The notes beneath the pieces are model-generated. The model had not been told where the DNA came from. It ran no database searches and saw only the letters and a program-made list of their open reading frames with translations. Shown here in pieces: positions 39,614 through 63,724 of a stretch of DNA of 64,000 nucleotides. Numbering within the stretch: position 1 is the stretch's first letter; each line of letters begins with the position of its first letter. Position numbers and translations under genes: made by a program. The stretch is from Bacteroidota bacterium (GTDB lineage: Bacteria > Bacteroidota > Bacteroidia > B-17B0 > Aurantibacillaceae): contig CANFTW010000012.1 in the NCBI GenBank assembly GCA_947450025.1, positions 1 to 64,000 of the forward strand, given 5' to 3'.

Positions 39614-40213
39614 ATGGTATTACCAATAGTTGTTTACGGCGATCCGGTTTTAAGAAAAAAATGTGTTGATATCGATAAGGACTATCCAAATTTAGGACAG
39701 TTAATTAAGGATATGTACGAAACGATGTACGAAGCAAATGGTGTTGGTTTAGCAGCCCCTCAAATTAATAAAGCTATTCGTTTATTTGTGATTGATGCTT
39801 CTCCATTTGCAGAAGTTGACGAAGATGAGGAACCTGAATTTACTGCTGAAGAAATGAAGCAAATGGATGGGTTCAAAAAAACATTTATTAATGCCCAAAT
39901 ACTTGAAGAAACAGGAGAAGAGTGGAAGTTCAGTGAGGGATGTTTGAGTATACCAAAAATCAGAGAAGATGTTTTACGTAAACCAAAATTAACGATTGAG
40001 TATTTTGACGAGAACTTTAAAAAACATACTGAAACATACGATGGTGTTATTGCACGCGTTATTCAGCATGAATATGATCATATTGAAGGGGTTTTATTTA
40101 CAGATAAAATTAATCCTTTCAAACGTAAATTAATCAGTGGTAAATTAACGGATATTTCTAAAGGTAAATATAGAGCAGATTATAAAACTAGAGTTTTTCA
40201 GCCCAAAAAATAA
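39614..40213 (+). CDS. def: peptide deformylase
   Basis: A metalloenzyme of 199 aa that removes the formyl group from nascent N-terminal methionine. The three family motifs are G-V-G-L-A-A-P-Q (motif 1), E-G-C-L-S-I-P (motif 2, metal Cys) and Q-H-E-Y-D-H (motif 3, His152/Glu153/His156). There is an acidic insertion between motifs 1 and 2 (D-E-D-E-E-P-E-F-T), usual in Bacteroidota. It overlaps the next start by one base. Confidence 0.96.
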   Translation: MVLPIVVYGDPVLRKKCVDIDKDYPNLGQLIKDMYETMYEANGVGLAAPQINKAIRLFVIDASPFAEVDEDEEPEFTAEEMKQMDGFKKTFINAQILEETGEEWKFSEGCLSIPKIREDVLRKPKLTIEYFDENFKKHTETYDGVIARVIQHEYDHIEGVLFTDKINPFKRKLISGKLTDISKGKYRADYKTRVFQPKK

Positions 40214-40791
40214 TGATGTTATTGAGATTTGTTTTATTATTCACTAGTAGTTTGTGTTTTTTTTCATGCAATAGTAATTCAATTGCAGAAAAAAAACAAG
40301 ATGAGAAAAAAGATACCATTCCAGTTGTAGAGTTAGATGAATGTTCTAAGCGATTTAATGAAGCAAAACGTTTAGATAATATTTTATTAAAAGCTACTGT
40401 GGTAAATAATGATATTGCTGAACAGGCAATTGAAGCATTTCATAAATTTTCCTCAAATTGTAAAACCGATACGCTTGCTCCAGTTTTTTTAATCAAAGCA
40501 GGGCAAGTAGCCCAATCAATTAGAAAATATACACAAGCACAAGCTTTTTTTACTAAATGCATTGATGATTTTCCAAAGTTTAAAAGTCGAGGAGCCGCAT
40601 TTTTTTTGTTAGCTCAATTATATGACGACGCTTCTATTTTAAATAATGAGTCGGAAGCTAGAACTATTTATCATCAAATCATTAGAGAATATCCGACAAG
40701 TTCATATGCCAATGATGCGAAGGCATGTTTGCAAAACCTTGGTAAAACCGATGAAGAGCTTGTTAAGGATTTCTTAAACAAAAACAAATAG
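40213..40791 (+). CDS. TPR lipoprotein
   Basis: This 192-aa lipoprotein has lipobox F-F-S-C at its N-terminus (Cys19) and a tetratricopeptide-like region (about 55-185), e.g. A-P-V-F-L-I-K-A-G-Q-V-A-Q-S-I-R-K-Y-T and D-A-S-I-L-N-N-E-S-E-A-R-T-I-Y. This recalls YbgF/BamD-type helper lipoproteins. It is coupled to def (stop of def overlaps its start by one base). Likely an envelope scaffold; its partner is unknown. The tandem small-RNA-like array begins just downstream. Confidence 0.78.
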   Translation: MMLLRFVLLFTSSLCFFSCNSNSIAEKKQDEKKDTIPVVELDECSKRFNEAKRLDNILLKATVVNNDIAEQAIEAFHKFSSNCKTDTLAPVFLIKAGQVAQSIRKYTQAQAFFTKCIDDFPKFKSRGAAFFLLAQLYDDASILNNESEARTIYHQIIREYPTSSYANDAKACLQNLGKTDEELVKDFLNKNK

Positions 40792-40822: not shown

Positions 40823-40837
40823 TTCCAATAAATGGAA
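40823..40837. promoter_or_regulatory. TTCCA-N5-TGGAA palindrome, site 1
   Basis: TTCCAATAAATGGAA; perfect 5-bp arms. Its end is 40 bp before the -7 box TAATCTTG (40877-40884). Confidence 0.7.
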
Positions 40838-40888
40838 TTTTTTTTTAATTAATTGAATAGTAGTATAAAAAAGTACTAATCTTGTATA

Positions 40889-40966
40889 GGATGTGTTAAC
40901 ACAACGGTTTAGTGATTGATTGTGTTTATTTAGAAAGAGTCATATATATGGCTCTTTCTTTCTTTC
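40889..40966 (+). ncRNA. predicted small RNA unit 1 of tandem array
   Basis: -7 box TAATCTTG (40877-40884) without a -33 TTTG, and site 1 upstream. The transcript would start near 40889, shortly before the palindrome TGTGTTAACACA (40892-40903). It ends at a terminator: GAAAGAGTCAT (40933-40943) pairs with ATGGCTCTTTC (40948-40958) with one G-U, then T-rich. About 78 nt. Confidence 0.5.
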
Positions 40967-40995
40967 TTTATCTTTTTTCTTCCGATTCCCTGTTT

Positions 40996-41010
40996 TTCCA
41001 ATTAGTGGAA
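40996..41010. promoter_or_regulatory. TTCCA-N5-TGGAA palindrome, site 2
   Basis: TTCCAATTAGTGGAA; perfect arms. Its end is 39 bp before the -7 box TATATTTG (41049-41056). Confidence 0.7.
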
Positions 41011-41060
41011 AAAAATAGAATTTAATTATTTTTTTTTTACATCTCGTCTATATTTGTTAT

Positions 41061-41145
41061 ACGTTCTTTTTATAAAGTCTTAATAGAGGGGGCTCTTGAC
41101 TTTTGAAACATAGTTTATTATATAATAATGACTATGTTTTTTTTT
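41061..41145 (+). ncRNA. predicted small RNA unit 2 of tandem array
   Basis: -7 box TATATTTG (41049-41056). The transcript of about 85 nt contains a small AGAG-GGGG-CTCT hairpin (41083-41094 region). It ends at a long hairpin, AAACATAGT (41106-41114) with ACTATGTTT (41131-41139), running into nine T. The body differs from units 3-5, although ACGTTCTTTTT near the 5' end is shared. Confidence 0.5.
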
Positions 41146-41231
41146 GCCATTAACTTTCAAAACATCCATCTAAAGTGTTTGGCATTTCTTTATTTTTTTA
41201 GACTATATGATTTTAGTATAAAAAACTAAAA

Positions 41232-41246
41232 TTCCATTTTAAGGAA
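41232..41246. promoter_or_regulatory. TTCCA-N5-(A/T)GGAA palindrome, site 3
   Basis: TTCCATTTTAAGGAA; one arm mismatch. Its end is 40 bp before the -7 box TATATTTG (41286-41293). Confidence 0.65.
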
Positions 41247-41297
41247 AATTTCATGATTGAATATTTTTTTTTATGAATAATGAAATATATTTGAGAA

Positions 41298-41369
41298 CGT
41301 TCTTTTTTCATATATGGTTTAACAATGCGTAAGTTAAAAAAAGAGTCATTGTTATGACTCTTTTTTTTT
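41298..41369 (+). ncRNA. predicted small RNA unit 3 (repeat copy 1)
   Basis: -7 box TATATTTG at 41286-41293. A transcript of about 72 nt starts next to the palindrome AGAACGTTCT. It ends at AAAGAGTCAT (41340-41349), loop TGTT, ATGACTCTTT, T9. A mini-frame M-R-K-L-K-K-E-S-L-L (ATG 41326, stop in the terminator) is an alternative product. Confidence 0.55.
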
Positions 41370-41423
41370 GCTTTTAATTCATGTAGTTTGAACACTGAAT
41401 ACTTTTATCATAAAAAACTAAAA

Positions 41424-41438
41424 TTCCATTTTAAGGAA
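41424..41438. promoter_or_regulatory. TTCCA-N5-(A/T)GGAA palindrome, site 4
   Basis: TTCCATTTTAAGGAA; its end is 39 bp before the -7 box TACATTTG (41477-41484). Confidence 0.65.
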
Positions 41439-41488
41439 AATTTCATGATTGAATATTTTTTTTATGAATAATGAAATACATTTGAGAA

Positions 41489-41560
41489 CGTTCTTTTTTC
41501 ATATATGGTTTAACAATGCGTAAGTTAAAAAAAGAGTCATATTTATGACTCTTTTTTTTT
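41489..41560 (+). ncRNA. predicted small RNA unit 4 (repeat copy 2)
   Basis: -7 box TACATTTG at 41477-41484. The body is nearly identical to unit 3. The terminator is AAAGAGTCAT (41531-41540), loop ATTT, ATGACTCTTT, T9. The mini-frame would be M-R-K-L-K-K-E-S-Y-L. Confidence 0.55.
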
Positions 41561-41614
41561 GCTTTTAATTCATGTAGTTTGAACACTGAATGCTTTTATT
41601 ATAAAAAACTAAAA

Positions 41615-41629
41615 TTCCATTTTAAGGAA
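41615..41629. promoter_or_regulatory. TTCCA-N5-(A/T)GGAA palindrome, site 5
   Basis: TTCCATTTTAAGGAA; its end is 39 bp before the -7 box TACATTTG (41668-41675). Confidence 0.65.
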
Positions 41630-41679
41630 AATTTCATGATTGAATATTTTTTTTATGAATAATGAAATACATTTGAGAA

Positions 41680-41752
41680 CGTTCTTTTTTCATATATGGT
41701 TTAACAATGCGTAAGTTTAAAAAAGGAGTCATAATTTTATGACTCCTTTTTT
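41680..41752 (+). ncRNA. predicted small RNA unit 5 (repeat copy 3)
   Basis: -7 box TACATTTG at 41668-41675. The terminator stem is AAAAGGAGTCAT / ATGACTCCTTTT, with one extra G-C pair relative to units 3 and 4. Inserted G and C on opposite arms keep the stem paired. The mini-frame becomes M-R-K-F-K-K-G-V-I-I-L and stays open. Confidence 0.55.
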
Positions 41753-41950: not shown

Positions 41951-41965
41951 TTCCATTTTATGGAA
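41951..41965. promoter_or_regulatory. TTCCA-N5-TGGAA palindrome, site 6 (FIST operon)
   Basis: TTCCATTTTATGGAA; perfect arms. The nearest good -7 box, TATATTTG, is at 42031-42038, 66 bp beyond its end. The spacing therefore differs from the other sites. Confidence 0.6.
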
Positions 41966-42030
41966 AAAATATCACTCTATTTATGACAAATGTTATCCTA
42001 TATGTCACCAATGATTAGGTTTGGAATACT

Positions 42031-42038: not shown

Positions 42039-42136
42039 TTATGTAGATAGATGAAACTTACTTCTGCTTAATCCATTTGGTTATCATGTCGTATTTTGAC
42101 TCATCTTTTTTGATTATTATTTTAATTTTTAAAATT

Positions 42137-43330
42137 ATGTTGAGTTTTCATTCTTCAAGTGCCAGAGTTATTAATACCAAGAGAGGTGTTATAGAGTGTA
42201 TGGAAATTGCTTTAGGAAATTCATATTCAGATTGTGATTTAATTATTTTGCATGCGTCTATTGGGCATGATTTTAAAGAAATGATCCAGCAAGCTAAAGA
42301 AATGGCTCCAAATGCTCGTATTGTGGCCTCCTCTTGCTGTGGGGTTGTTGGACGAGAAGGTGTTAGTGAATCCATGAAAGACATTGCTTTAATGGCAATA
42401 AAAGGTTCTGAATTTGCTGTATCGCATGTGGATGAAATTTATGGTCATAATTCATATGAAAAAGCTTTAGAAATGGCTCATTCATTAAAAAGTCAATCTC
42501 CTAATATTACCATGATTTATTTTCTGGCATCAGGAATTGATATTGCGAATGATTTATGTATTAAAGCTTTTGAATCGGTATTTGGAACAGAGGTAACCAT
42601 TTTTGGAGCAACCTCTTCAGATAATATGAAAGGATTTATTAGCTATCAAGCAGTGGATGATCAGGTTTTTGAACATGGCGCATATGCTGTTGGGTTTTCA
42701 GATCCAACCCTTTCTATTGATACTCAGGCTACTCATGGATTTGTTGCTGTTGGAGAGCCTCTCGTTGTCACAAAATCAAAAGGTCATATTATTGAAGAGT
42801 TAAATGGGAAACCAGCTTGGAAAGAATATACAAGATGTTTAGGCATTCCAGAAGACTCAACGTGTGAAACCTCCATTCCTATAGGTGCATTAGGAGAAAA
42901 ATTATCTTCTGAATTAGCTAAAGAATATGGAAATGAACATATACTAAGAGTAGTTACAAAGCATGATGGCGATAAAATGTATTATGCTACCCAATGTCCA
43001 GTTGGCACTTCATTATGGTTAACTAAAAGAGATGAGGAGTTAATATTTAGTGAAATGGATAGAATGGTGGTTGATATGAAATTACGCTCTAAATGGAAAG
43101 TTCCAGTAGCGGTTTTTCATGCAGATTGTTTAGCCCGGGGTCGATTCTTATTTGATAGGGTCATCAAGGAAGAACTCGTGAGTAAAATGCAACATCCTTT
43201 TTATACTAATGGGATATGTCCTCCTTGGTTAGGAATGTATGGATTTGGTGAATTTGCTCGTTTAGGTGGAAAAAATGAATATCATAATTACACAACATCT
43301 TTATATGTTTTATATAGAGAATCAAAATAG
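42137..43330 (+). CDS. FIST-domain sensory protein
   Basis: The start is taken at ATG 42137 (397 aa) because M-L-S-F-H-S-S-S matches the usual FIST beginning; upstream codons (from TTG 42077) look like an AT-rich leader. The FIST N domain (about 1-205) has C-D-L-I-I-L-H-A-S, A-R-I-V-A-S-S-C-C-G-V-V-G and I-F-G-A-T-S-S-D-N-M. The FIST C domain (about 215-370) has the carbohydrate/amino-acid-sensing-like fold with F-H-A-D-C-L-A-R-G-R and the final G-F-G-E-F-A-R-L-G-G-K-N-E-Y-H-N. FIST proteins are thought to sense small ligands and feed kinases or cyclases. The histidine kinase gene follows 22 bp later. Confidence 0.9.
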   Translation: MLSFHSSSARVINTKRGVIECMEIALGNSYSDCDLIILHASIGHDFKEMIQQAKEMAPNARIVASSCCGVVGREGVSESMKDIALMAIKGSEFAVSHVDEIYGHNSYEKALEMAHSLKSQSPNITMIYFLASGIDIANDLCIKAFESVFGTEVTIFGATSSDNMKGFISYQAVDDQVFEHGAYAVGFSDPTLSIDTQATHGFVAVGEPLVVTKSKGHIIEELNGKPAWKEYTRCLGIPEDSTCETSIPIGALGEKLSSELAKEYGNEHILRVVTKHDGDKMYYATQCPVGTSLWLTKRDEELIFSEMDRMVVDMKLRSKWKVPVAVFHADCLARGRFLFDRVIKEELVSKMQHPFYTNGICPPWLGMYGFGEFARLGGKNEYHNYTTSLYVLYRESK

Positions 43331-43352: not shown

Positions 43353-46300
43353 ATGGACGGTTCGGAAGAATATAATAAATTATTAAAAGCCTATCAGGAT
43401 TTACAGTTACGTGTAACTCAGTTTTCTTTTATTGAGCAAAAATTAATTAATACTCAGGATAAATTAGATTATGAGTTATTGCTTTATAAACGTTTACAGA
43501 ATTTCAATTCCGCTGCTTTAAAAGATTTATCTATGCATGATTTTGTAAGGTTAGTTGCAGAGTCAGTGATAGATGTCTTAGAGTTGGAATCAGCGGTTGT
43601 TTTATTTAAAAATGAAACGGATGATGTGGAATTATTTTTGGAAGGATTTCCAAAACAAGATATTTCTACAACGCAATATATTGATGATACAATATTATTA
43701 GCTAATGATTTAGAGGAAGGAAAAGCATGTATCCTAAATCCTAATCATTTTTATAATATTCCTTCTTTTATTCAATTTTATAGTGGTTTGTTTTTTCAAT
43801 TTACAGAAAAGGAGTTGGGGTATTCTTTTGTTATTATTGGTTTTATTTCTATTAAAAAGGCTCCAATTTATCAGCTTCTTCAAGCTCGCCATGAAACGAT
43901 CTTTAGCGTGTTTGCTCAGCAGGCTCAATCTTTATTAGCTAACAAAATTAAAAATGATAAAATCAAAAATCAAATTGAAAAGATATCATCCTCTGAAATT
44001 GAATTAAAAAAATTATCACTCATTGCAACTAAAACCAATAATAGTGTCATTATTTCAGACGCGGAAGGTAGAATAGAATGGGTAAATGAAGCGTTTACAA
44101 AGGCTTCTGGATATACATTGGAGGAATCCAAGGGTAAAAAACCTAAAGAGTTTTTACAGGGGCGGAATACAGACAAAGCTGAATTAAAAAAATTATCTGA
44201 AGCCATTTATAAAAAAGAAAATATACAAGTCACTTTAATTAATTATACAAAAGAAGGTGCACCTTATTATAATCAGATTGAAGTGACGCCTGTTTTTGAT
44301 GAACAAGGAAATCATTTAAATTATATTTCACTTCAAAAAGATATTACTCAGGAATTAATTAATCAGCGAGAGATTTTACGGATTAATTCGCGATTTGAAT
44401 TAATTACCAGTAAATCAAACATTGGTATTTGGGAATGGGAAGCATCTACAAATAAAGTGGTTTGGAATGATACTTTATTATTACAATATGGGGTTGATAA
44501 GGATAATTATGATAAAATGGATTTTGTCAATTTCTGGAACAATTCTGTGCATCCTGATGACAGTGAGCGTGTGGAGTTTAATACAAATTATTTAATGACT
44601 TCAGATCAGGAAGTATTAGAACAGGAGTATAAAATCATAAAATATAATGATAAAGAAGTTCGAATTGTTAGAGATGTCACCATTGCTGAAAGAGATGAAA
44701 AAGGAACGTTATTGAGATTAATTGGTAGTACGCTGGATATCACAGAAGAACGCAAAAATGAGTTGGAATTACAGCATAATTTAAGACAACAGGAATTGTT
44801 ATCAGAACTAGCTTTAGGATTAAATAACGTGAGTGATTTTGATTCAAGGATTAATTTAGCAATTGAACAAGTTGGATTACATACACAGGTGAGTCGAGTG
44901 TATATTTTTCAAGATGCTGAAAATTCTAAGGTATCTAATAATACTTTTGAATGGTGTAATAAAAATATTAGTTCACAAAAAAATGAATTACAAGGCTTGT
45001 CTTACGAGTCTATTCCTTCACTAAAATCTATTTTATTAGACAAAGGATTATTATACGCTGAAGATATTTCAGTTTTACCAAATGACTTAGTACCTGTCTT
45101 GCAATCACATGATATTAAATCAATCATTATATACCCTTTGTATGTAAAAGGAGTTTATTTTGGATTTATCGGCTTTGATGAATGTTTAATTCATAAAAAA
45201 TGGCTTAAGTCTGAACTCGAATTGCTGCGCACCATTTCTGGTATTATTTCAAATGCTTTTGAACGTGACCTTTCTGAAAAAACTTTGTTAGCGAGTGAAG
45301 AAAAATATAGAAGTATCATTGAAAATATTAATATTGGCCTTCTCGAGTCTAATGTTAACGGTGAAATTGTGTTTCAAAATAAGAAATTTTTTGAATTAAC
45401 ATTGCTTGACAATGCTTCCTTATTAGTCATAAGAAAGGATGCGGAAGCTGATTTGAAAGAGAAAGTGCTAAATGGAAATATTTTATCATACACTAAAATT
45501 GATCAATCGGTTTATGAAATTGAGATTAATCGTTTAGATCATAAATTAATTACTTTATTAGTTAGTTGTGCTCCATCTATCAATCAAGAAGGTGAAGTTT
45601 CAGGATACATCAACGCATACCTTGATATAACAGATATCAAACAAATTGAAAAGGCCGTTTTAAAAAAGAATGATGAATTAAAGAAAATTAATACAGAACT
45701 TGATAATTTTGTATACAGTGTTTCGCATGATCTAAGATCCCCATTGCTTTCCATTAGAGGTATTTTAGATTTAATATCGAAAACTGCATTATTAGATGAC
45801 AAAACGCTACAGTATTTGAATTTAGCTGAAACCAGTGCAAAAAGATTAGATGGAACAATCCAAGAAATTTTAGAATATTCTAAAAATGCTCGTTTTGATA
45901 TTGAGTTAGAAGAATTTAATATCGTTGATATGTTGAATTTGATTTTTGAAGATCTTAAATTTACAAGTAACAATGAGGTTTCTTTGCTGATTGAAATAGA
46001 CGGCCCTCCAATGATATGCTCCGATAAATCAAGAATGAATACCTTATTAAAAAATTTAATTGGTAATTCAGTTAAATATAAAAGGAAGTCAGACACTGAT
46101 TCATACGTAAAGTTTAAATTACACCGTCTTTCAGATCATTTATTAATGGAAGTGGAGGATAATGGAATGGGTATTTCCGAGAAAAGTATTGATAAGGTGT
46201 TTGATATGTTTTATAGAGGAACTAAATCTAGTGTTGGAACTGGTTTAGGTCTTTATATTTGTAAAGAAATTGTCAATAAACTTGGAGGAAGTATTTCAGT

Positions 46301-46367
46301 AAAATCTGAATTAGGAATAGGTACAAGCATGAGTATAAGTATACCAAATAATATTAACTACAAATAA
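43353..46367 (+). CDS. multi-PAS/GAF sensor histidine kinase
   Basis: This soluble kinase has 1004 aa. In order: coiled coil (about 5-55), GAF-like domain (about 50-200), PAS (about 225-340, LOV-like E-F-L-Q-G-R-N-T-D but without the photoactive Cys), PAS_3 with PAC (about 345-465), GAF (about 480-640), PAS (about 645-765), HisKA with S-V-S-H-D-L-R-S-P (His792), and HATPase (about 885-1000) with N-L-I-G-N-S, D-N-G-M-G-I and G-T-G-L-G-L. No transmembrane helix is seen. It lies in an operon between the FIST protein, probably its input, and a single-domain receiver. Confidence 0.92.
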   Translation: MDGSEEYNKLLKAYQDLQLRVTQFSFIEQKLINTQDKLDYELLLYKRLQNFNSAALKDLSMHDFVRLVAESVIDVLELESAVVLFKNETDDVELFLEGFPKQDISTTQYIDDTILLANDLEEGKACILNPNHFYNIPSFIQFYSGLFFQFTEKELGYSFVIIGFISIKKAPIYQLLQARHETIFSVFAQQAQSLLANKIKNDKIKNQIEKISSSEIELKKLSLIATKTNNSVIISDAEGRIEWVNEAFTKASGYTLEESKGKKPKEFLQGRNTDKAELKKLSEAIYKKENIQVTLINYTKEGAPYYNQIEVTPVFDEQGNHLNYISLQKDITQELINQREILRINSRFELITSKSNIGIWEWEASTNKVVWNDTLLLQYGVDKDNYDKMDFVNFWNNSVHPDDSERVEFNTNYLMTSDQEVLEQEYKIIKYNDKEVRIVRDVTIAERDEKGTLLRLIGSTLDITEERKNELELQHNLRQQELLSELALGLNNVSDFDSRINLAIEQVGLHTQVSRVYIFQDAENSKVSNNTFEWCNKNISSQKNELQGLSYESIPSLKSILLDKGLLYAEDISVLPNDLVPVLQSHDIKSIIIYPLYVKGVYFGFIGFDECLIHKKWLKSELELLRTISGIISNAFERDLSEKTLLASEEKYRSIIENINIGLLESNVNGEIVFQNKKFFELTLLDNASLLVIRKDAEADLKEKVLNGNILSYTKIDQSVYEIEINRLDHKLITLLVSCAPSINQEGEVSGYINAYLDITDIKQIEKAVLKKNDELKKINTELDNFVYSVSHDLRSPLLSIRGILDLISKTALLDDKTLQYLNLAETSAKRLDGTIQEILEYSKNARFDIELEEFNIVDMLNLIFEDLKFTSNNEVSLLIEIDGPPMICSDKSRMNTLLKNLIGNSVKYKRKSDTDSYVKFKLHRLSDHLLMEVEDNGMGISEKSIDKVFDMFYRGTKSSVGTGLGLYICKEIVNKLGGSISVKSELGIGTSMSISIPNNINYK

Positions 46368-46372
46368 TACAT

Positions 46373-46750
46373 ATGAAAAAATATCTTTTAATTGACGACG
46401 ATGACATTTTCAACTTTCTTCACTCAGAGGTTATTAAACAAGTTGAGAAATCTCCTGAAATAACAATTCATAGTTCAAGTATTGATGCTTTAGACTTTAT
46501 CAAAGAATGTGTTGAACAAAAGATAAATTTGCCCGATTATATTTTTGTAGATATTAGGATGCCAGAAATGAATGGTTTTGAGCTCATGGATGAATTAATG
46601 AAACTCCCTTTAGAATTATTTGATCAAACAAAAATTTATTTTGTGACATCATCTCTCGATCAGCGAGACCGAATAAAAGCTAAGGATTATCCTATTGTGA
46701 CAGGTTTTAAAGAAAAGACCATTACCTCAGAATTATTAAAGGATATGTAG
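46373..46750 (+). CDS. stand-alone response regulator receiver (CheY-like)
   Basis: This single receiver domain of 125 aa has the acidic pocket L-I-D-D-D-D, phospho-acceptor Asp in Y-I-F-V-D-I-R-M-P-E-M-N-G, Thr/Ser in F-V-T-S-S-L and a Lys in G-F-K-E-K-T. It starts 6 bp after the kinase stop. It probably receives phosphate from that kinase and passes it on, possibly to the Hpt protein encoded convergently just downstream (46751-47074). Confidence 0.92.
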   Translation: MKKYLLIDDDDIFNFLHSEVIKQVEKSPEITIHSSSIDALDFIKECVEQKINLPDYIFVDIRMPEMNGFELMDELMKLPLELFDQTKIYFVTSSLDQRDRIKAKDYPIVTGFKEKTITSELLKDM

Positions 46751-47074
46751 TTATTTAATCACTTTCTCAATTTCTAATATAATTTTTTGAGTGTAAGCTA
46801 TAAATTTCTTTTCACTAAGGGTAATGTCTTTTTTACCCAATTCATTCATCTCAAGTTCTATATGGTCAAGCGACATGATATGAGTGGATAATTTCATTTT
46901 ATGACAAAGCTCAGCAATTTTTTGAAATTCTTTTTTCACTAAATGCTTCTTCACTTTTTCTAAATCTTTAGTGATATTTTTTAGTAATAGTTTAACTGAT
47001 TCTAACACTAATTCATCACTCTTAACCATTTGTTTTAAGCGTGTGGTATTTATTTTGTCAAAATTTGATTTCAT
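46751..47074 (-). CDS. histidine phosphotransfer (Hpt) protein
   Basis: A helical protein of 107 aa with an Hpt-like helix A-E-L-C-H-K-M-K-L-S-T-H-I-M-S-L, where H-K-M-K-L-S stands for the canonical H-x-x-K-G-x-S. Helical segments on both sides complete a four-helix bundle. Its start overlaps the stop of the hybrid kinase upstream by 4 nt, so it is the likely relay partner of that kinase. Its 3' end abuts the receiver gene on the other strand (stops 0-1 bp apart). Confidence 0.82.
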   Translation of the reverse strand: MKSNFDKINTTRLKQMVKSDELVLESVKLLLKNITKDLEKVKKHLVKKEFQKIAELCHKMKLSTHIMSLDHIELEMNELGKKDITLSEKKFIAYTQKIILEIEKVIK

Positions 47075-49686
47075 TTTGTTTTGTGTTTTTGAATGGTTGA
47101 CTTTATTTTAGAAAATAATTGAACTGGGTTATATGGTTTCTTCACTACACCATTCATCCCTGCTTTTATACAGTCGTTATAAACTTTTCGCTGGGTATGA
47201 GCTGTAATTGCCAAGATAGGGGTGGTATGATGTAAAATATTTCTGATTTGCTCAGTGGCTTTAAATCCATCCATTTTTGGCATACTTAAGTCCATTAAAA
47301 TTAAATCATACTTGTTTTTTTTAATCATCGTAATGGCCTGTAATCCGTTTCCTACAGCATCTACTTGCAATTTTTTATCTTTTAAAAGACTGGTTAAGAA
47401 AAAACGATTAAATTCATGATCCTCTGCTACTAAAATTCTTTCGCCATTAAATTGTTTACTAATGCTTAATTTTTTAAGTGATTCCTGAGTTTCTTTTTGT
47501 TTAACAATTACTTTTTTGGTTGGTATCTTAATGGTAAAAGCAGTTCCTTTTCCTAATTCACTTTGAACGGTAATACTTCCTTTTAAAAGTTCTACCAAAC
47601 GCATCGAAATATTTAGACCTAAGCCTGCGCCTTCATTAGGGTTTGTGATTCTATTTTTAGTAACAATCCCATTAAAAATTTTATCTAATCTATTTTTTTC
47701 AATACCAATACCTGTATCTTTAATCGTAATTTCTAGTTCTGTATCTGTTTTGGTTAATTTGCTATATACCTCAATTTTACCTTTTGGTGTAAATTTCATG
47801 GAATTACCAATGATATTAAACAGCACTTGTCTTAATCTTACCTCGTCAGTAACAATATGGATAGAATCTGGAATTTTAGAAATGTGATCAATTGTAATTC
47901 TTTTTCGTTTAGCTTCTACCGAAAAGGTTGAAATGGTATCATGAATTAATTGATTAATATTTAGTTTATTATTAATGATTTTGATTTTACCAGTTTTAAT
48001 TTTAGATAAATCTAAAATATCATTCAATAAACCTAATAAATGGCTCGAAGAGTTTTTGATGGTTGCAATATAAGAGAGTAGGGTGGTATCAGTTGTATTA
48101 TCTTCCAATAAGTGTAAAGCCCCTGCAATCGAATTTAAAGGCGTTCTTATTTCATGACTCATGTTAAATAAGAATTGCTCTTTCATTTTCATCGCCTCTT
48201 CGGCATTAATTTTTGCTTGAAGGAGTTTGAAATTGAGTTCTAATAGTTTAGTAATGTTTCTTCCTAATATTAAAATACTACTGAGTTTATTGTTTGAATC
48301 CTTAATGGGAGTAAGGTGGTATTCAATTTTGATATTCGACTCAGCATGAATGTTTTGGAAGGAAACAGAGGTTTCTTTTGTTTTTTTAGATTTTAGTTTT
48401 TGAAAATAGTTTAACCATATTTCTTTTTCTTCAAGAGGAATATAATTAAAAAATGAATGTTGATCGATGGAGTTTATTTTTTGAAATGTTTTATGAAATG
48501 CCGAATTAGAACTTAGAATATTGTAATTGGTATCTATTGAAAAAATAATATCATCCGAATAATTGATAATGGCTTCTAAAAACGACTTATTGTTATGTAA
48601 GATTTTATCTTTTTCAACAATACTAGTTGTGTTTCTGACCGAAACAACCACTTTTTTTTCAGGATGGTTGAGTGTTTGTTTAATAAGTGAAATCCGAGAT
48701 TGGAAATAGACTTCTTTACTGGGATGCTTATAGTCAATGGTCTTAATTTCTCCCGTTTCAATCACCTCTTTAATACTATGTTCAAATTGTTTACCGAGTT
48801 TCCCTAAAACAATATTGAGGCGTTTACCAATAAAATTATGTTTAGGAATAATAAAATTAGAATCGTTTGAAGCCCATGCATTGGTAAAGATATAACGGTC
48901 GTTAATTTCAAATACCACATCTTCTATGGAACTTAAAATAGAGGTAATATTTTCTTTAAAAATATTTTCGGCTGTAACATTATTAGAAAATCCCAGGTAA
49001 TTGGTAATTTTTCCTTTTGAATTAAACACAGGAAAAATATTTTTTTTCGTATACATCATGGAGCCATCGGCCAATTTATTTTGCTCAATAAATTCTACGG
49101 GTGCTTTCGTTTGTTTGGCTTGTAAAATTAGTTTTGTTCTTGAGCGGCCAATGGCAATATTTTTTTGATAGTGTTTACAGTACTCAATGTCTGTTTTTCC
49201 AATAATCCATTGCCTTACTTCAGGATTTTTAATGGCGCTTGAACTAACATTAAAATAGCGCAATTTGTCGTCATAAATAGCAATATCAAAAGGTATTTTA
49301 TCAAATATTTGATCAAACATCCAATTAATATGCTGCTTACTTGTTTCTGTATTACTTTTTTCAGAAACTCTTTTAGAAAGATTTAAAATACACTGTTGAT
49401 GTTGGTCATCAAACAATAGCTGAATGCTATAATCAATGTTTTTAATGGGTATTTTAAAAAAAGTGGTTTCTTCTTTTTGAAGAGAAACTTGAATTCTTTT
49501 TTCTATTTGGGCTTGAATTAACTCACTAACCAGCTCTAATTCGGCATCTGTTTTAAACCAAGGTTTAAACTCCAGTAATTTTTTTTTAAAGGGTTTGTGA
49601 TAAGGATGTTTAATAAAAATAGGCTTTAACAAAACATCTTCTTTGTTAAGTGAGTAGGTTTTATGTGGTTTATTTGAATTCATCAT
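47071..49686 (-). CDS. hybrid sensor histidine kinase (PAS-HisKA-HATPase-REC)
   Basis: This is an 871-aa protein without membrane segments. The N-terminal 110 residues are unassigned. Three PAS-like domains follow (about 112-235, 240-360, 365-480), then HisKA with F-N-M-S-H-E-I-R-T-P-L-N-S. The HATPase (about 605-720) has N-I-I-G-N-S-M-K-F-T, D-T-G-I-G-I and G-L-G-L. A C-terminal receiver (about 745-865) has phospho-acceptor in I-L-M-D-L-S-M-P-K-M-D-G. A phosphorelay kinase, co-transcribed with the Hpt gene downstream. Confidence 0.92.
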   Translation of the reverse strand: MMNSNKPHKTYSLNKEDVLLKPIFIKHPYHKPFKKKLLEFKPWFKTDAELELVSELIQAQIEKRIQVSLQKEETTFFKIPIKNIDYSIQLLFDDQHQQCILNLSKRVSEKSNTETSKQHINWMFDQIFDKIPFDIAIYDDKLRYFNVSSSAIKNPEVRQWIIGKTDIEYCKHYQKNIAIGRSRTKLILQAKQTKAPVEFIEQNKLADGSMMYTKKNIFPVFNSKGKITNYLGFSNNVTAENIFKENITSILSSIEDVVFEINDRYIFTNAWASNDSNFIIPKHNFIGKRLNIVLGKLGKQFEHSIKEVIETGEIKTIDYKHPSKEVYFQSRISLIKQTLNHPEKKVVVSVRNTTSIVEKDKILHNNKSFLEAIINYSDDIIFSIDTNYNILSSNSAFHKTFQKINSIDQHSFFNYIPLEEKEIWLNYFQKLKSKKTKETSVSFQNIHAESNIKIEYHLTPIKDSNNKLSSILILGRNITKLLELNFKLLQAKINAEEAMKMKEQFLFNMSHEIRTPLNSIAGALHLLEDNTTDTTLLSYIATIKNSSSHLLGLLNDILDLSKIKTGKIKIINNKLNINQLIHDTISTFSVEAKRKRITIDHISKIPDSIHIVTDEVRLRQVLFNIIGNSMKFTPKGKIEVYSKLTKTDTELEITIKDTGIGIEKNRLDKIFNGIVTKNRITNPNEGAGLGLNISMRLVELLKGSITVQSELGKGTAFTIKIPTKKVIVKQKETQESLKKLSISKQFNGERILVAEDHEFNRFFLTSLLKDKKLQVDAVGNGLQAITMIKKNKYDLILMDLSMPKMDGFKATEQIRNILHHTTPILAITAHTQRKVYNDCIKAGMNGVVKKPYNPVQLFSKIKSTIQKHKTK

Positions 49687-49762: not shown

Positions 49763-51106
49763 TTAGTTTGTTTTTTTGGTGTCATCAAAACTACCATCAT
49801 TTAGCATTTTGTATATTTTACTTTTGCTAATCCCTAAAACATTGGCTGTTTTTACAACCTGAAAATCATTACGTTTTAAATAATTAAAAATATAACGTGC
49901 CGTGAAATCTTTTAAAGTTGTATTATTTAAATCATAGGATGATTGTAAGTTTGAATTAAATACAATTTCATCCTCAGTAATTGCTGTACCTTCCGATAAT
50001 ACACATGCTAATTCAATAATGGCTCTTAATTCTTTTACGTTGCCAGGATAATTATACCTTAATAATTTCTTTTTTGCACCGTTCGATAATTTTTTATCAA
50101 TGGTATTGTTGCTTCGGCAAAATTCATTCTTAAATTCTTCAGCAATATAGGCTATATCTTCCGTTCGGTCTCTTAATGGTGGTAATTCTATTTTTAAACC
50201 TAAGGTTTCAAAATAGAGTTCTTCGTTTAATTTCTTCTTTTTAAGTAAATCATGCATGTTAAATTTACTTCCTATAATTAATCGATGATTGGTGCCAGCT
50301 GTATATTCTTTTTGTTGCTCATTGTTTTTTATTTTTTTCAGAAACAACATCAACTTGGTTTGCACTGTTAAATTTAAATCTCCAATTTCCTCAATAAAAT
50401 AGGTGCCATTTTTATAGATGGCTAAGTTTTCTGGGATTTTAGTAATGTTATTGATTGCTAAATCAAGATACTTTTCAAAACTTTCAATATCGTGTGAGCT
50501 AATTTCATTTAATGGTAAATGCGATAGTTTAGATGACATATGAATCACCTTTGCTACATAACGTTTACCTGTTCCATTTTCTCCCACAATAGCAATGTTT
50601 AAAGCTGATTGAGAGGCTTTGATAATCAGTTTTTTAATATTACTAATAGCATTACTATGTCCTATTAAAAAGGTATCTAGCTGAATGAAATTTTGAAACT
50701 GATTTTTTAACGAACTGTTTTCTTCAACTAATTTTTTTTCTTTGATATAGGTTTTAATGATTTTATTGGCGTGTTCAAGAGAATGCTCATCTTTAATGAT
50801 ATAATCATCAGCCCCCATTTTAATTAGGCTCGTCGCTACCTTAATATCGGTTTGAGAGGAAACTATCACAATTTTGATGGTAGGATTATATGACTTGTAT
50901 TTTTCAATAATCTCGTTGGCCAACAAATCAGGTAGGCGATAATCTAAAATTATAAAATCTGGATTTTGGTTAATCTTTTTTAGGACCGATTTGCCATTAA
51001 AATAAGATTCACATTTTAATTGTTTATTTTCCGACAGAGAATCTAATAATAGTTTATTATAAAATTCATCATCTTCAACTATAAATGTTTTATAAATGCC
51101 TTCCAT
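49763..51106 (-). CDS. response regulator with degenerate sigma54-type AAA+ and Fis HTH
   Basis: This 447-aa protein has a receiver (1-120, Asp55 in F-I-I-L-D-Y-R-L-P) and an AAA+ domain (about 145-385) with Walker A G-E-N-G-T-G-K (175-181) and a changed Walker B Y-F-I-E-E-I-G-D (236-243). The stretch between them is shortened and lacks the G-A-F-T-G-A loop and the usual E-L-F-G-H segment. The Fis-type HTH (about 395-440) has F-Q-V-V-K-T-A-N-V-L-G-I-S-K-S-K-I-Y-K-M-L. It therefore should bind DNA but not remodel sigma54 polymerase. It is the best local candidate to bind the TTCCA-N5-TGGAA palindromes (inference). Confidence 0.88.
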   Translation of the reverse strand: MEGIYKTFIVEDDEFYNKLLLDSLSENKQLKCESYFNGKSVLKKINQNPDFIILDYRLPDLLANEIIEKYKSYNPTIKIVIVSSQTDIKVATSLIKMGADDYIIKDEHSLEHANKIIKTYIKEKKLVEENSSLKNQFQNFIQLDTFLIGHSNAISNIKKLIIKASQSALNIAIVGENGTGKRYVAKVIHMSSKLSHLPLNEISSHDIESFEKYLDLAINNITKIPENLAIYKNGTYFIEEIGDLNLTVQTKLMLFLKKIKNNEQQKEYTAGTNHRLIIGSKFNMHDLLKKKKLNEELYFETLGLKIELPPLRDRTEDIAYIAEEFKNEFCRSNNTIDKKLSNGAKKKLLRYNYPGNVKELRAIIELACVLSEGTAITEDEIVFNSNLQSSYDLNNTTLKDFTARYIFNYLKRNDFQVVKTANVLGISKSKIYKMLNDGSFDDTKKTN

Positions 51107-51212: not shown

Positions 51213-52895
51213 TTAATGAATAGCAATGTTTAAATGCTGGATAATTTTATCCCTTAAATGAGCCGAGTTAAAAGGTTTAGTCACATAATCATTCATGCCC
51301 GATTGTAAGCACCTCTCTTTATCTTCCTTTAAGGCATTAGCTGTTAAGCCAATAATTGGAGTAGGGAGTTTAAATTGATCTCTAATGGTTTTTGTGGCGG
51401 TTAATCCATCCATCACGGGCATTTGCAAATCCATAATAATCAAATCAAAGGCATGTTTTTTAATCATTTCTAAGGCCTTTTTACCATTATTAGCTGTTTT
51501 AAACTCAAAATGCCATGAACCTAAAAGTTTGGTTATTAAAAACAGATTAAACTCATCGTCCTCCACTACTAAAATCATGGGTTTAGATTTTAAGGTCGAT
51601 AGTTTGGCTACTTTTTTGGAGCGAATGGCTTTGTCTTTTGTAAGGTGTTTTGGTAATTCTAATTCTACCTTAAAGCTAGATCCTTTGTGTTTATTACTTT
51701 TTACGGTAATGATTCCTCCTAACAAACGAACTAATTCTTTAGTTAAATTTAATCCAAGGCCTGTGCCGCCATATAAGCGGGTTGTTGAATTATCGGCTTG
51801 ATGAAAAGGTTCAAATATTCTATCTAATTTCTTTTTAGCTATGCCAATACCTGTATCTGATACTTCAATGGCTATGTGCTGAGAAGTTGGTTTATTTTTT
51901 AAAATTTTTACTTCAATTTTTATCAAGCCTTTTGGAGTAAATTTAACGGCGTTGGATAATAGATTTAAAATAATTTGATTAATTCGTGTTCTATCCGAAT
52001 CATAAGAGGAAATACCTTTATCATAATGCGCCTCGATGGTAATGCCTTTTTCAGCAATTTTTTCTTTAAAGGAATAAACGGCATTATCAACCAATTCTTT
52101 GATGGAAAAGGTTGTTTTTTCTAGGATAATTTCGTTGGCTTCAATTTTCGAATAATCTAAAATGTCATTGATTAACCCTTTTAAATTATCGGAAGAGATT
52201 GATAATATTTTAATGAGTTCCTGCTCCTCTTTTAATAATTTTTTTTGTTTGATAATATCGGTTACCCCAATAATGGTATTAAGCGGGGTTCTAATTTCGT
52301 GACTGAGATTATTTAAAAAGCGTTCGCGTAATTCCTTACTTTTCTTGATTTCATCAATAGAGGCAAGAAGCTTTAATCGAATCTCTTCTTGTTCTTTTTT
52401 ATGATTTAAGTTCAAATACACATTACCAAATAAATGCGCCACAAAATTTAAGATAGCTAAATGAAAATCATTAAAATGGTAGGCGTTTTTGCTTGATAAA
52501 CCAATGGTGCCAATACATTTATCTTGAGCAATAATGGGCACAAATGCGCGTGAGCGTGTAATAAAACGGCGTTTACTATCTTTGTTATTATAATTTTTTT
52601 CTTGCGTGGCATCATTAATCAAAATTGATTTTTGATTTTGAAACACCCAACCTGGGTGACGTTTCATGGCGGTGCTCTCAGATAAAATTCTTTCGGCTTT
52701 AGTAAAACCACGATGGGTCATTAATAAAAGGTTGTTTTTTTCTTCGTTATACAAAAACAAACCTGCTACTTCCACTTTTATAATGGATTCAATAATGGAT
52801 TGGGCGTTTTGTCCTAATTCTTCAATCGTTTCGGATGAAGAGATGGCGATGGCAATTTTCTCGAGGCGTTTGGCGTATTTGATGGTAAGTGACAT
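51213..52895 (-). CDS. GAF-containing hybrid histidine kinase
   Basis: This soluble protein has 560 aa. The GAF domain spans about 15-165 (V-A-G-L-F-L-Y-N-E-E, G-W-V-F-Q-N-Q, R-A-F-V-P-I-I-A). HisKA (about 185-250) has N-N-L-S-H-E-I-R-T-P-L-N-T. The HATPase (about 295-410) has N-L-L-S-N-A-V-K-F-T, D-T-G-I-G-I and G-G-T-G-L-G-L. The receiver (about 435-555) has D-L-I-I-M-D-L-Q-M-P-V-M-D-G. It lacks an Hpt domain, so it probably feeds the separate Hpt protein at 46.8 kb. About 105 bp separate it from the AAA+ regulator gene downstream. Confidence 0.92.
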   Translation of the reverse strand: MSLTIKYAKRLEKIAIAISSSETIEELGQNAQSIIESIIKVEVAGLFLYNEEKNNLLLMTHRGFTKAERILSESTAMKRHPGWVFQNQKSILINDATQEKNYNNKDSKRRFITRSRAFVPIIAQDKCIGTIGLSSKNAYHFNDFHLAILNFVAHLFGNVYLNLNHKKEQEEIRLKLLASIDEIKKSKELRERFLNNLSHEIRTPLNTIIGVTDIIKQKKLLKEEQELIKILSISSDNLKGLINDILDYSKIEANEIILEKTTFSIKELVDNAVYSFKEKIAEKGITIEAHYDKGISSYDSDRTRINQIILNLLSNAVKFTPKGLIKIEVKILKNKPTSQHIAIEVSDTGIGIAKKKLDRIFEPFHQADNSTTRLYGGTGLGLNLTKELVRLLGGIITVKSNKHKGSSFKVELELPKHLTKDKAIRSKKVAKLSTLKSKPMILVVEDDEFNLFLITKLLGSWHFEFKTANNGKKALEMIKKHAFDLIIMDLQMPVMDGLTATKTIRDQFKLPTPIIGLTANALKEDKERCLQSGMNDYVTKPFNSAHLRDKIIQHLNIAIH

Positions 52896-53033: not shown

Positions 53034-56000
53034 TTAATTAATAGCTACTTTTTTAGTGGTATTGATTCCATTTTGTTTTACCGTAATGTAGTATATACCA
53101 GTTGAGAATTTAGTTAAATCAACACTAGTTTGCTCAGCAGTAGTAATGGTTTGTAAAATTACTTTACCAACAATATCCGTTACTATTAATTCTGCACCAG
53201 CCGATGTTCCGTTTACCACAAAGCTTCCTTTATTAGGGTTAGGGTAAATAGAGATATCATTTGATTTATCGCAAGATACTGACTCAATACGGAAGGTTTT
53301 ACTTGTACCATTAAAATCTGTTTGTTTTAAACGGTAGTAAGAAATACCACTTAATGGCGCTTCATCAATATACGAATAATGATTAGCAGAAACTGTGGTT
53401 CCGTGTCCGTTAACATAAGTAATTGGCTCAAAATGAACGCCATCACCTGAGCGCTCTAAAGTATAGTATTGGTTATTTAACTCAGTAGCAGTATTCCAAT
53501 TCACATATACCTTGCTGTTTGAGCAAGTAGCTGTAAAATCCGTTAACTCAATTGGTAATGGATTGTTGCGGCTTAAAGATGCTAATGCAAAAGGACTAAA
53601 TGAATTAACGTTGTTAAGCGTTGTCACATCACCATTTGTTGTCGAACCAGTTGTGCCTCCGTTACCAAGATCTTGCCAAGTGCTTGTTCCAGCATCCCAA
53701 TGAGATACCAATAAATCGGGCATGAAAGTTACACCACAACTACGTGTGCTACCCCAACTTAAAGTTACTTTTGGTGATGAATTTCCGTTGGTACGATCAA
53801 TCATCCAATATTCGCAATAACTAATATGATCAATTGTTGGGTCACGAGTTAAATTACTATACCCACTTAAATCAGGATCAGCAGCAAAGTATTCAGCCGT
53901 AAATTTGTCTGTATTAGTGCTTGGTGCAGTGATACTTGCTGGAGCATATTCAACTCCTTTACCAATTGGGAAGGTAAAGGCTTGCGTACCAATTTTCTGA
54001 ACTGGACCATTAACAAAACTTCTTGAATTGGCTCCAATAGCTGTTGCTCCATCTCTAAAAATATAGAGGTTAGTAGCCGTTGAATTAATGAGCCCATTAG
54101 TAAAGGTTGTACTATTAATAATTTCTACAGGATTATTAATAGTAATTGCGCCTGCAGATTTAGAGACTTCAACATCATAAAACACTTCGGTGGCTGTACC
54201 ATTATTTCTAACGATATTTTGGCTCCCACTTCCATTAAACACGACTTTACCAGTTGAAGGTGTAAAGCTACCATTATTAAACCATTGACCAGCTACGTTA
54301 AATACACCTGCTCCCATGGTAAGGGTAGCACCCGTTTCGATACTTATTTTTTTAGCGGCTACGGTATTGGTACCTGTATTTGGTTGATTGATGATACAGT
54401 TTTGAGTAACAGGGATGACAATATTATTAGCACTTGTAGGAGCAGCAGCAGCATTGGTATAAGTGGTTCCACTATAACCATACCAGTTATTTAAATTGGT
54501 ATAATCAGTGCTTACGCGGCCGTTCCATACTAAATCTCCACTAGCCATGGTTGTAGCAATAGTTGGTGTATTAAGTGTTACCGATACAGTAGAAGTTGTG
54601 TTACATCCCAAACTATTTGCGGTAGCTGTATAAGTTTGTGAACTTGGTGGGCTGCTATATACCGTATATGTATTGGTGCCAGTATAGGCAGTAGTAGCCG
54701 CATTATCTGTATATAAACCTGTTGTAGCTGCCCATGTAACCGTTGGAGTAACAGGAGCTGTTAATACCACATCATCAATGTACCAACCATTCAAGCCATA
54801 GGTCATACCATCTACAATAAATGCTAAATAGAATGTACTAGAACCTACATTGGCATTACTTATACTCATAGTGGTAGTGTTAGCAGTAATATTTGCTGCT
54901 GGATTAACTGAGGACCAAACTGTTGGTGCGCCAGCACCCCAACCAGTAGCATTATTCCCTGTTTTTACAGCAATGGTATATGGGTATGTTCCTGCACAGC
55001 ATGTACTTAAGTATTGTTTAAAACTTAAGTTTAATGAGGTATAACCCGTGGTATTGATAGGTCCATAATATAAGACGCATCTATTGGTTGCTGTTGAGCC
55101 ATTATAATAAAACATTACTTCATTAGCAGCCCCACCAGCGTTGGCAGAGGCATTAATAGTAATTGGATTAGTAGCACTTGTCCAGGCAGATCCTGTTGTG
55201 GTTACACTCCAACCTGGAGCTGAACTTCCAGAAAAACTCTCACTTAAAAATGTTTTAGTGATGGTAGGCACCGTAGCTGTTAATGGTGTAGTTAAGGCTA
55301 TACAAACAGACGTATTAGTAGGTGCTGTAATGGTTGGATAACTATTGATGCTTATTGCAGGTGAGGTATATTTGACATTACCGGGGCCTCCGCCGTTTAT
55401 ATTATCTGCAAACCAAAAGTTCTGTTCGCTTACAAGATCCACTATTAAATTATTTAAACCTACACTTAAAGGTGTTGTGTAAGCAGGCCCATTGGTTGCA
55501 TTAGATGCTGTTATAACTAAAGAGTAGGTACCAATAGCACCCGGTGCCAAACCATTAGCATCTGTTCTTACATAATAATCTGCCCAGTTGGTACCATTTG
55601 TATTCCATTTAATTCCTATATTAATATCTGGTGCAGCATTGGTCCAAGTTTGAACCCCATTATTTTTAACAGTTACCGTTACAGTTCTTGTTTCTCCAGC
55701 ACACCAATCACTTGAACCAAAGTTAACCGATTGTATTTGCGCTAAATAGTTAATTGGTGGTGGTGGGCAACTGGTACATGTTATAACACTAGTACCTGCT
55801 GAAGACGCTGTGCCACAAGCAGGGTAAGCAGTGGTATTATAATGCACATAATATGTGCCAGCTACAGTTGCGGTCCATGTTAATGGCGTTGCTCCATAGG
55901 CAATAATTGGACCAGCCGGTGTACCTTGATGCACGGTAATATAACCCCCTAAACTATAAGATGATACATATACATTACCTGCTACCACACTATTAATAGT

Positions 56001-58589: not shown

Positions 58590-58751
58590 AGGTGTATGTT
58601 GTTTAGTGAAAGAAAAACAATGAAAAGATTTTTGGATGTGCGTTTTCATGGTAGTGATATTATCAAATTGTAAATACTAAATTATTGATGTGTTACTAAT
58701 GTTATAAATTTCATTAATTCTATAATGATATTAATACTGTTTGTATTTTTT

Positions 58752-58766
58752 TTCCATTTTTTGGAA
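58752..58766. promoter_or_regulatory. TTCCA-N5-TGGAA palindrome, site 7
   Basis: TTCCATTTTTTGGAA; perfect arms, in the divergent intergenic region between the giant T9SS gene and the 58949 gene. No good -7 box lies at 39 bp on either side. Confidence 0.6.
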
Positions 58767-58843: not shown

Positions 58844-58858
58844 TTCCATAAAATGGAA
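58844..58858. promoter_or_regulatory. TTCCA-N5-TGGAA palindrome, site 8
   Basis: TTCCATAAAATGGAA; perfect arms. On the minus strand a TATATTTA box (58798-58805) begins exactly 39 bp away, facing the giant T9SS gene. On the plus strand AATTTTTG (58885-58892) begins 27 bp away, facing the 58949 gene. Confidence 0.65.
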
Positions 58859-58948
58859 AATATTTTTAATAAATGAGCCTTCCCAATTTTTGGTACGAAA
58901 TTTATGGCATGGTATATGTTAATATATTATAAACTAAAAAAAACTGTT

Positions 58949-61622: not shown

Positions 61623-61627
61623 ATTCT

Positions 61628-63028: not shown

Positions 63029-63039
63029 TTTATTGATCT

Positions 63040-63047
63040 TAAAGTTA
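63040..63047 (-). promoter_or_regulatory. -7 box TAACTTTA of the HisKA_2 kinase operon
   Basis: TAnnTTT(A) box on the minus strand, 12 bp before the ATG and exactly 40 bp from the near end of palindrome site 9. Confidence 0.5.
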
Positions 63048-63086
63048 ATTAATCCCGTAAATTTGTCGGGTGATTTTATAAGTTTT

Positions 63087-63101
63087 TCCAAAAAATGGAA
63101 A
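63087..63101. promoter_or_regulatory. TTCCA-N5-TGGAA palindrome, site 9
   Basis: TTCCAAAAAATGGAA; perfect arms. It serves the minus-strand kinase promoter at a 40-bp offset. Confidence 0.7.
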
Positions 63102-63113
63102 AATTCAATAAAT

Positions 63114-63128
63114 TCCATTTTTTGGAAT
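63114..63128. promoter_or_regulatory. TTCCA-N5-TGGAA palindrome, site 10
   Basis: TTCCATTTTTTGGAA; perfect arms, between sites 9 and 11 in the divergent region. Centres of sites 9 and 10 are 27 bp apart and of 10 and 11 are 26 bp apart. Confidence 0.65.
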
Positions 63129-63139
63129 AAATAGCTTTT

Positions 63140-63154
63140 TCCAATTCACGGAAT
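63140..63154. promoter_or_regulatory. TTCCA-N5-(C/T)GGAA palindrome, site 11
   Basis: TTCCAATTCACGGAA; one mismatch. Its end is 38 bp before the plus-strand -7 box TAATTTTG (63192-63199). Confidence 0.65.
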
Positions 63155-63223: not shown

Positions 63224-63724
63224 ATGAAGTGTATTATTTTAGCTATAATTACTTTGCTTTTTATAAGTTGCAAATTAAATCATGTGGCTATAAAATCTTT
63301 GGAGCCTTCATCCTACACAAATCATAACTCTGTTCATACTTATTTGCTATCTAATAAAAATGACAGTGTCTTTGTGAGTGTATTTCAGGGAATTAACCTT
63401 AATGGAGGATCGTATTTGAGCTGGACTTATCGATCAACAGCCGATAGCATTGCTTTTATTGTGGAGAAGGCTTCTGAGGATATGAACTTTAAGGCCGTTT
63501 ACATTAAAAATAAAACCATAAAGCCGGCTTATGTTTTTTTAACCGAGTGTTATAAAGATAATCAAGTGACCTCTCAATTCGCACAATTCTATCGATTAAA
63601 AGTGGTTAGTACAAAGTTGATGAATCCCATTCATAAAGAGTTATTAAATCAGTCAGTATCAGCTACTATCAAAGTAGAAACTAATCAAAAAAACGTTCCA
63701 TATTCCTTAATTAGTAATCCTTAA
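63224..63724 (+). CDS. lipoprotein of unknown function
   Basis: This is a 166-aa lipoprotein with lipobox L-F-I-S-C-K (Cys16). The mature domain looks like an all-beta fold (V-H-T-Y-L-L-S-N-K-N-D-S-V-F-V-S-V-F, K-P-A-Y-V-F-L-T-E-C-Y-K-D). No family is recognised. It is the first gene of a plus-strand operon that continues with a 31-aa membrane protein and an apparent FIST gene. The operon is preceded by palindrome site 11 and a -7 box, so it is a candidate member of the same regulon as the kinase operon opposite. Confidence 0.7.
   Translation: MKCIILAIITLLFISCKLNHVAIKSLEPSSYTNHNSVHTYLLSNKNDSVFVSVFQGINLNGGSYLSWTYRSTADSIAFIVEKASEDMNFKAVYIKNKTIKPAYVFLTECYKDNQVTSQFAQFYRLKVVSTKLMNPIHKELLNQSVSATIKVETNQKNVPYSLISNP

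Follow-up and report, generated by a model that had tools for sequence, protein, structure and literature searches.

Among the described systems closest to the locus reported here is the Qrr system of Vibrio, in which LuxN, LuxQ, and VpsS act through LuxU and LuxO on the sibling small RNAs (sRNAs) Qrr1–5, with NosP as an input (PMC6769237, PMC4211561). In V. cholerae, the NO-binding protein NosP is described as inhibiting the kinase VpsS, which signals through LuxU and LuxO to the Qrr RNAs (PMC6769237). Adjacent paralogous sRNAs are also found in PrrF1/2, OmrA/B, and AbcR1/2, but these are pairs from other phyla with other regulators (PMC4211561). Within the Bacteroidota, the FopS/GibS sRNAs of Bacteroides are likewise multicopy, share a conserved seed at the 5′ end, and have promoters of the primary-sigma type; FopS differs in having 14 paralogs bound by RbpB, and its published description, by which we set it apart, mentions neither a tandem operator array nor a phosphorelay neighbour in the parts available (PMC11697453). 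Finally, the GAFTGA-less bEBPs NtrC of Rhodobacter capsulatus, NtrC of Caulobacter, and VspR of V. cholerae carry the same loop deletion as the candidate regulator described below and act on primary-sigma promoters (PMC10274813), whereas the present protein belongs to the Bacteroidota, its nearest genus relatives keep GAFTGA or GSFTGA, and its predicted output is an sRNA array.

The locus was found in the 3.2-Mb genome of a freshwater Bacteroidota, in a 64-kb stretch (contig C12), the whole of which was analyzed and is called the window below. Five consecutive units lie at 40823–41752, between an ORF (40213–40791) and a FIST gene (Table 1). We read them, with a probability of about 60%, as five tandem activator-dependent genes for trans-acting sRNAs, with sigmaA-type promoters and their own terminators, which would form the RNA branch of a regulon defined by its operator. 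The likeness to the Vibrio system, with its four to five sibling sRNAs, extends to a receiver-AAA+-HTH activator, hybrid kinases, a probable HPt protein, and a FIST protein operonic with a kinase. The differences are that the promoters here are of the sigmaA type, with −7 boxes and an operator at −58, and not of the sigma54 type, that the regulator lacks GAFTGA, and that the genes are in tandem rather than scattered, in another phylum, and without an Rfam sequence match. Qrr is a family present in Rfam; a search of the window returned no Rfam family at the gathering score, and the sigma54 −24/−12 motif TGG[CT]AC[GA]N4TTG was not found in it. Membership in Qrr was thus rejected on the Rfam result, the missing −24/−12 promoter, and the lack of GAFTGA in the regulator. 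The first-pass annotation had proposed a Qrr-like logic in sequences unrelated to Qrr; the lack of an Rfam match to Qrr agrees with this, and the Qrr-like logic is plausible.

Table 1. Coordinates of the array, its signalling neighbours, and other operator sites in the window.
Feature	Position	Strand	Sequence or remark	Basis
Unit 1 operator	40823..40837	+	TTCCAATAAATGGAA	Palindrome search
Unit 1 −7 box	40877..40884	+	TAATCTTG, gap 39, one mismatch to TAnnTTTG	
Predicted sRNA 1	40889..40961	+	Terminator hairpin about 40932–40959	Fold z −4.9
Unit 2 operator	40996..41010	+	TTCCAATTAGTGGAA	Palindrome search
Unit 2 −7 box	41049..41056	+	TATATTTG, gap 38	
Predicted sRNA 2	41061..41146	+	5′ end ACGUUCUUU, terminator hairpin about 41105–41140	Fold z −3.0
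Unit 3 operator	41232..41246	+	TTCCATTTTAAGGAA	Palindrome search
Unit 3 −7 box	41286..41293	+	TATATTTG, gap 39	
Predicted sRNA 3	41298..41367	+	5′ end CGUUCUUU, terminator 41336–41367	Fold z −3.3
Unit 4 operator	41424..41438	+	TTCCATTTTAAGGAA	Palindrome search
Unit 4 −7 box	41477..41484	+	TACATTTG, gap 38	
Predicted sRNA 4	41489..41558	+	5′ end CGUUCUUU, terminator 41527–41558	Fold z −3.6
Unit 5 operator	41615..41629	+	TTCCATTTTAAGGAA	Palindrome search
Unit 5 −7 box	41668..41675	+	TACATTTG, gap 38	
Predicted sRNA 5	41680..41752	+	5′ end CGUUCUUU, terminator 41719–41752	Fold z −4.8
FIST operon operator	41951..41965	+	TTCCATTTTATGGAA	−7 candidate TAGGTTTG at 42016, gap 50
FIST protein	42077..43330	+		Pfam FIST 4.5e-28, FIST_C 2.7e-9
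PAS histidine kinase	43353..46367	+		
Single-domain receiver	46373..46750	+		
Probable HPt phosphotransfer protein	46751..47074	-		Pfam Hpt E 0.13, fold matches, alignment
Hybrid histidine kinase	47071..49686	-		
Candidate activator	49763..51106	-	Receiver-AAA+-HTH, without GAFTGA loop	Pfam Response_reg, Sigma54_activ_2, AAA_lid
GAF hybrid histidine kinase	51213..52895	-		
Operator	58844..58858	-	Gap 38 to TATATTTA, towards secreted GEVED/fn3 protein gene 53034–58649	
Operator	63086..63100	-	Gap 38 to TAACTTTA, towards HisKA_2 kinase 61628–63118 and receiver-SpoIIE 60432–61622	
Operator	63139..63153	+	Gap 38 to TAATTTTG, towards gene 63224–63724	

All five units show the same order, namely an operator TTCC-N7-GGAA, 38–39 bp, a Bacteroidota −7 box, 70–86 nt, and an intrinsic terminator, with a hairpin and a T-run closing each of them. 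Transcript starts were set by the −7 box rule, the flavobacterium box TAnnTTTG being reported to span −12 to −5 (PMC9723704), which puts the operator centres at −58 or −59 relative to these predicted starts. The predicted transcripts folded better than shuffled sequences in every case (z −3.0 to −4.9). Units 3–5 stem from a recent tandem duplication of 191 bp (97% for its first two copies), units 1 and 2 being old or unrelated copies of the same design. A 5′ ACGTTCTTT is common to unit 2 and units 3–5, and (A)CGUUCUUU is the predicted transcript start in units 2–5. Palindrome counts, boxes, and folds thus confirm the five modules with palindrome, −7 box, and terminator that had been described in the first-pass annotation, and the sequence comparison bears out its statement that units 1 and 2 diverge from units 3–5 yet keep the layout. 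Its transcript length of about 70–85 nt is close to the predicted 70–86 nt, and the fixed spacing held, but the distance of 39–40 bp from palindrome to −7 box was counted as 38 or 39 bp. Its general description of small RNA units bounded by promoter and terminator, with an activator-like site upstream and signalling genes alongside, is in line with the sequence, by which the sRNA reading of the units is well supported.

Two further operator-driven, terminator-bounded units were detected on contig C32 of G013, one of the relatives, whose genomes are Bacteroidia metagenome-assembled genomes. One of these units contains the operator, a 38-bp gap, the −7 box, and the terminator. Of the 12 positions that follow its −7 box, 11 carry the base found in units 3–5 (AGTACGTTCTTT vs. 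AGAACGTTCTTT), and it shares with them a 5′ AGnACGTTCTTT and the predicted 5′ end CGUUCUUU, as well as the terminator core GAGTCATA/TATGACTC, the middle having diverged; the alignment gave z values of 6.0–7.5 against shuffles. Units 1, 2, and the second G013 unit showed little sequence conservation. The covariance search in related genomes that had been suggested was run on 87 family genomes with a model (R1) built from units 3–5 and the G013 unit. It recovered the training units, followed by scattered terminator-like matches (best 3.9e-5, in G018), and no operator was found beside any of the eight non-training loci checked. The score of the G013 unit (3.1e-9) is circular in this search, and a second model (R2, 56 sources) was therefore built from units 3–5 only; with R2, the G013 unit (36.1 bits) could not be told apart from unrelated terminators, a G018 site scoring 38.4. 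The case for homology is consequently built on four features together: the operator, the gap of exactly 38 bp, the terminator core, and the 5′ end. Homologous repeats that had lost promoter or terminator, named beforehand as evidence against the design, were not encountered, the one homologous unit found having kept all elements. Downstream of the G013 unit (L097:2040-2340), a cluster of GAGCTGTCACACTGAGC-like repeats adjoins a DUF4143 ATPase gene.

The operator TTCC-N7-GGAA occurs 12 times in the window, where 0.74 occurrences are expected (100 dinucleotide shuffles, shuffle maximum 3), and 11 of the 12 sites are in or at intergenic regions, the twelfth (27985) being inside a gene. Besides the five units and the FIST operator, whose gap of 50 bp speaks against our reading, six further sites are present in the window. 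Those at 58752 and 58844 lie between two secreted-protein genes, one of which is the GEVED/fn3 gene, and those at 63086, 63113, and 63139 share the gap before the HisKA_2 kinase and a small gene. Site 63086 is inside the kinase ORF when this is read at its longest, but the true start would lie downstream of the site. By its placement, the operator defines a regulon made up of the sRNA units, the FIST-histidine kinase-receiver operon, the HisKA_2 kinase, and secreted-protein genes. The HisKA_2 kinase and the receiver-SpoIIE phosphatase that follows it (60432–63118, minus strand), with three operators upstream, are a possible partner-switch module of this regulon. Elsewhere in the genome, two operators 54 bp apart (L098:3492 and L098:3546) lie between divergent small genes, and AAAAGAACGT, the complement of the predicted seed, occurs 85 nt inside the left one.

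Regarding the signalling neighbours, the FIST protein contains FIST_N and FIST_C domains, scores 43.7 bits with the NosP model NF041558 (below the cut-off of 450), and more likely starts, by homology, at ATG 42137 than at 42077. The product of 46751–47074 is probably, though not certainly, an HPt protein, as suggested by its structural model (pLDDT 68, medium confidence), by the HPt entries that lead the Foldseek list (best E 0.035), and by His58, conserved in all three orthologs. HPt also led in VIA-align (Z 10.8, 3.0 Å, 102 aligned), a Z value that is common among helical bundles.

The operator–promoter geometry was analyzed in 20 genus genomes with the pattern TTCCA-N5-TGGAA, 24–54 bp, TAnnTTT. 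All 69 matches were used as rows; because a single palindrome may contribute several of these, on both strands, their independence is not complete. A gap of 38 or 39 bp, that is, 2 of the 31 possible gaps, was found in 16 of the 35 rows from this genome (G000) and G013, involving 16 different operators, as opposed to 2 of the 27 rows from 16 genomes in which the candidate regulator has no ortholog (Fisher p 8e-4) and 1 of 7 rows from G009 and G014, both of which bear the ortholog. The strict operator TTCCAWWWWWTGGAA was counted 9 times in G000, 10 in G013, 2 in G014, 1 in G009, and 0–3 times in the 16 other genomes. Among 19 operator promoters, which had been chosen by gap, only one had a TTG (−33 element) at a spacing of 17–23 bp upstream of the −7 box, in keeping with promoters that depend on an activator. 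The G013 genes with an operator at 38/39 bp comprise an FKBP-WG-FIST operon, a second FIST gene, a divergent HisKA_2 kinase, a universal stress protein, and secreted proteins, and FIST and HisKA_2 genes are thus regulon members common to the two species. In G014, a sigma54-like promoter TGGTACGAACTTTGTA is located just downstream of an operator (L083:976, minus strand), and in the window a poorer match, TGGTACGAAATTTA, comes after operator 58844 (58844–58920, plus strand); some operators may therefore also adjoin sigma54 promoters.

The candidate activator, encoded 8 kb from the array, matches 4l4u over nearly its full length (residues 7–437) and LuxO 5ep0 with an E value of 2.9e-30. NtrC-family proteins and LuxO are among its best matches of known structure, and it is an NtrC-type protein of the LuxO family. 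A 13-residue segment with the sigma54-contact GAFTGA loop is missing in all four regulator orthologs, while GAFTGA or GSFTGA is kept in all six genus relatives at about 35% (five full-length, one cut by a contig end), and a distant paralog in the window (17578–18729) carries GAFTSA; sigma54 is encoded in the host genome. GAFTGA-less NtrC-type proteins have been reported to regulate sigma70 promoters (PMC10274813), and the loss of the loop thus fits the sigmaA-type −7 promoters. An operator at a fixed distance from TAnnTTT is also consistent with a regulator that activates primary-sigma promoters.

It is likely that 49763–51106 encodes the activator that would bind the operator. The units may also be regulated sRNA genes whose operator is bound by another transcription factor, the GAFTGA-less regulator controlling other genes; we consider this unlikely, but it is the alternative that fares best. 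The ortholog was found in 4 of the 87 family genomes (G000, G013, G009, and G014; the order-level search covered the same 87 genomes), and operators are abundant in just two of these four. The FIST operon of L032 (apparently G009, to judge from coordinates and scores that are identical), which has a 59% regulator ortholog, showed no operator upstream, and the pairing of regulator and operator is inferred. The sole strict operator in G009 (L085:16775; G009:C17:16775-16789) overlaps the start codon of the regulator ortholog, which may be due to chance or autoregulation. G014 has few operators, none at 38/39 bp and one at 37 bp before its FIST operon (L033), the only one of 14 FIST loci with an operator upstream of the operon; few other operator matches were seen in those loci. 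Since the G009 FIST operon is operator-free and G014 operators are few, the count of operators does not cleanly follow the presence of the regulator, and the link across genomes is suggestive. Against another factor, most operators of G000, G013, and G014 gather about the cluster that encodes the regulator, in the latter two near regulator-linked genes; the spacing of the sigmaA type agrees with an NtrC-type protein that lacks GAFTGA, and a dyad of 15 bp is well suited to a dimer with a Fis-type HTH.

If the regulator is the activator, the cluster kinases would phosphorylate it, probably via the HPt protein. It would bind TTCCA-N5-TGGAA centred at about −58 at each operator and, working like a class-I activator, recruit sigmaA RNA polymerase, activating rather than repressing the five units, which would be switched on together so that the array multiplies sRNA output. 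The sRNAs would then act in trans by base-pairing through their 5′-terminal CGUUCUUU. Bacteroidota mRNAs are described as being without Shine-Dalgarno sequences (PMC6847099), and the U-rich seed could match A-rich start regions of mRNAs. The seed complement AAAAGAACGT was not enriched over its reversed control in G000 (24 matches against 32) or G013 (24 against 34), the 30 of these 48 sites that were placed relative to genes showed no pattern, and a duplex scan of unit 3 against 45 translation starts of the window gave no signal (best z −2.06).

These target searches, which returned no candidate, would be explained if the repeated operators served as a decoy or buffer that titrates the regulator, the short terminated RNAs being functionless by-products. 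The clustering of six operators within 1.15 kb and the little-conserved sequence of units 1, 2, and the second G013 unit are also in favor of such a role, but every unit operator keeps its 38–39 bp to a −7 box and is followed by a strong terminator, and the 5′ end CGUUCUUU has been preserved both among the copies and from one species to the other, which makes titration quite improbable. Micropeptides had been named as an alternative by the first-pass annotation. That the array encodes regulated micropeptides of about 10 aa, instead of or besides trans-acting RNAs, was rejected as very improbable: units 3–5 share an ATG frame (MRKLKKESLL, MRKLKKESYL, and MRKFKKGVIIL), but these three copies are recent duplicates, the frame enters the terminator hairpin, no ATG frame of at least 6 aa exists in units 1, 2, or the G013 unit, and the features common to more than the duplicates are the 5′ end and the terminator.

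Taken as tandem sRNA genes, the units can be placed, tentatively and at somewhat less than even odds, in a convergent Qrr-like circuit of the Bacteroidota, in which FIST-linked and hybrid kinases would signal through HPt to a sigma54-independent LuxO-like regulator, which in turn would switch on five tandem sRNAs, secreted surface proteins, and the operon that provides its input, all by way of a single operator set at a constant distance from sigmaA promoters. No such locus was found described in one literature library, searched by titles and abstract starts, nor was the operator string. To our knowledge, little has been mapped of how transcription factors control sRNAs in Bacteroidota. This one locus combines several sRNA copies and promoters of fixed geometry with a defined operator and a candidate activator, which makes an activator-dependent class of sigmaA promoters and a signal-driven multi-sRNA output directly testable. 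If the circuit is confirmed, the multi-sRNA phosphorelay design would have arisen at least twice, with different sigma factors. These results suggest that one signalling pathway turns on several sRNAs at once, as in Vibrio quorum sensing, using different parts.
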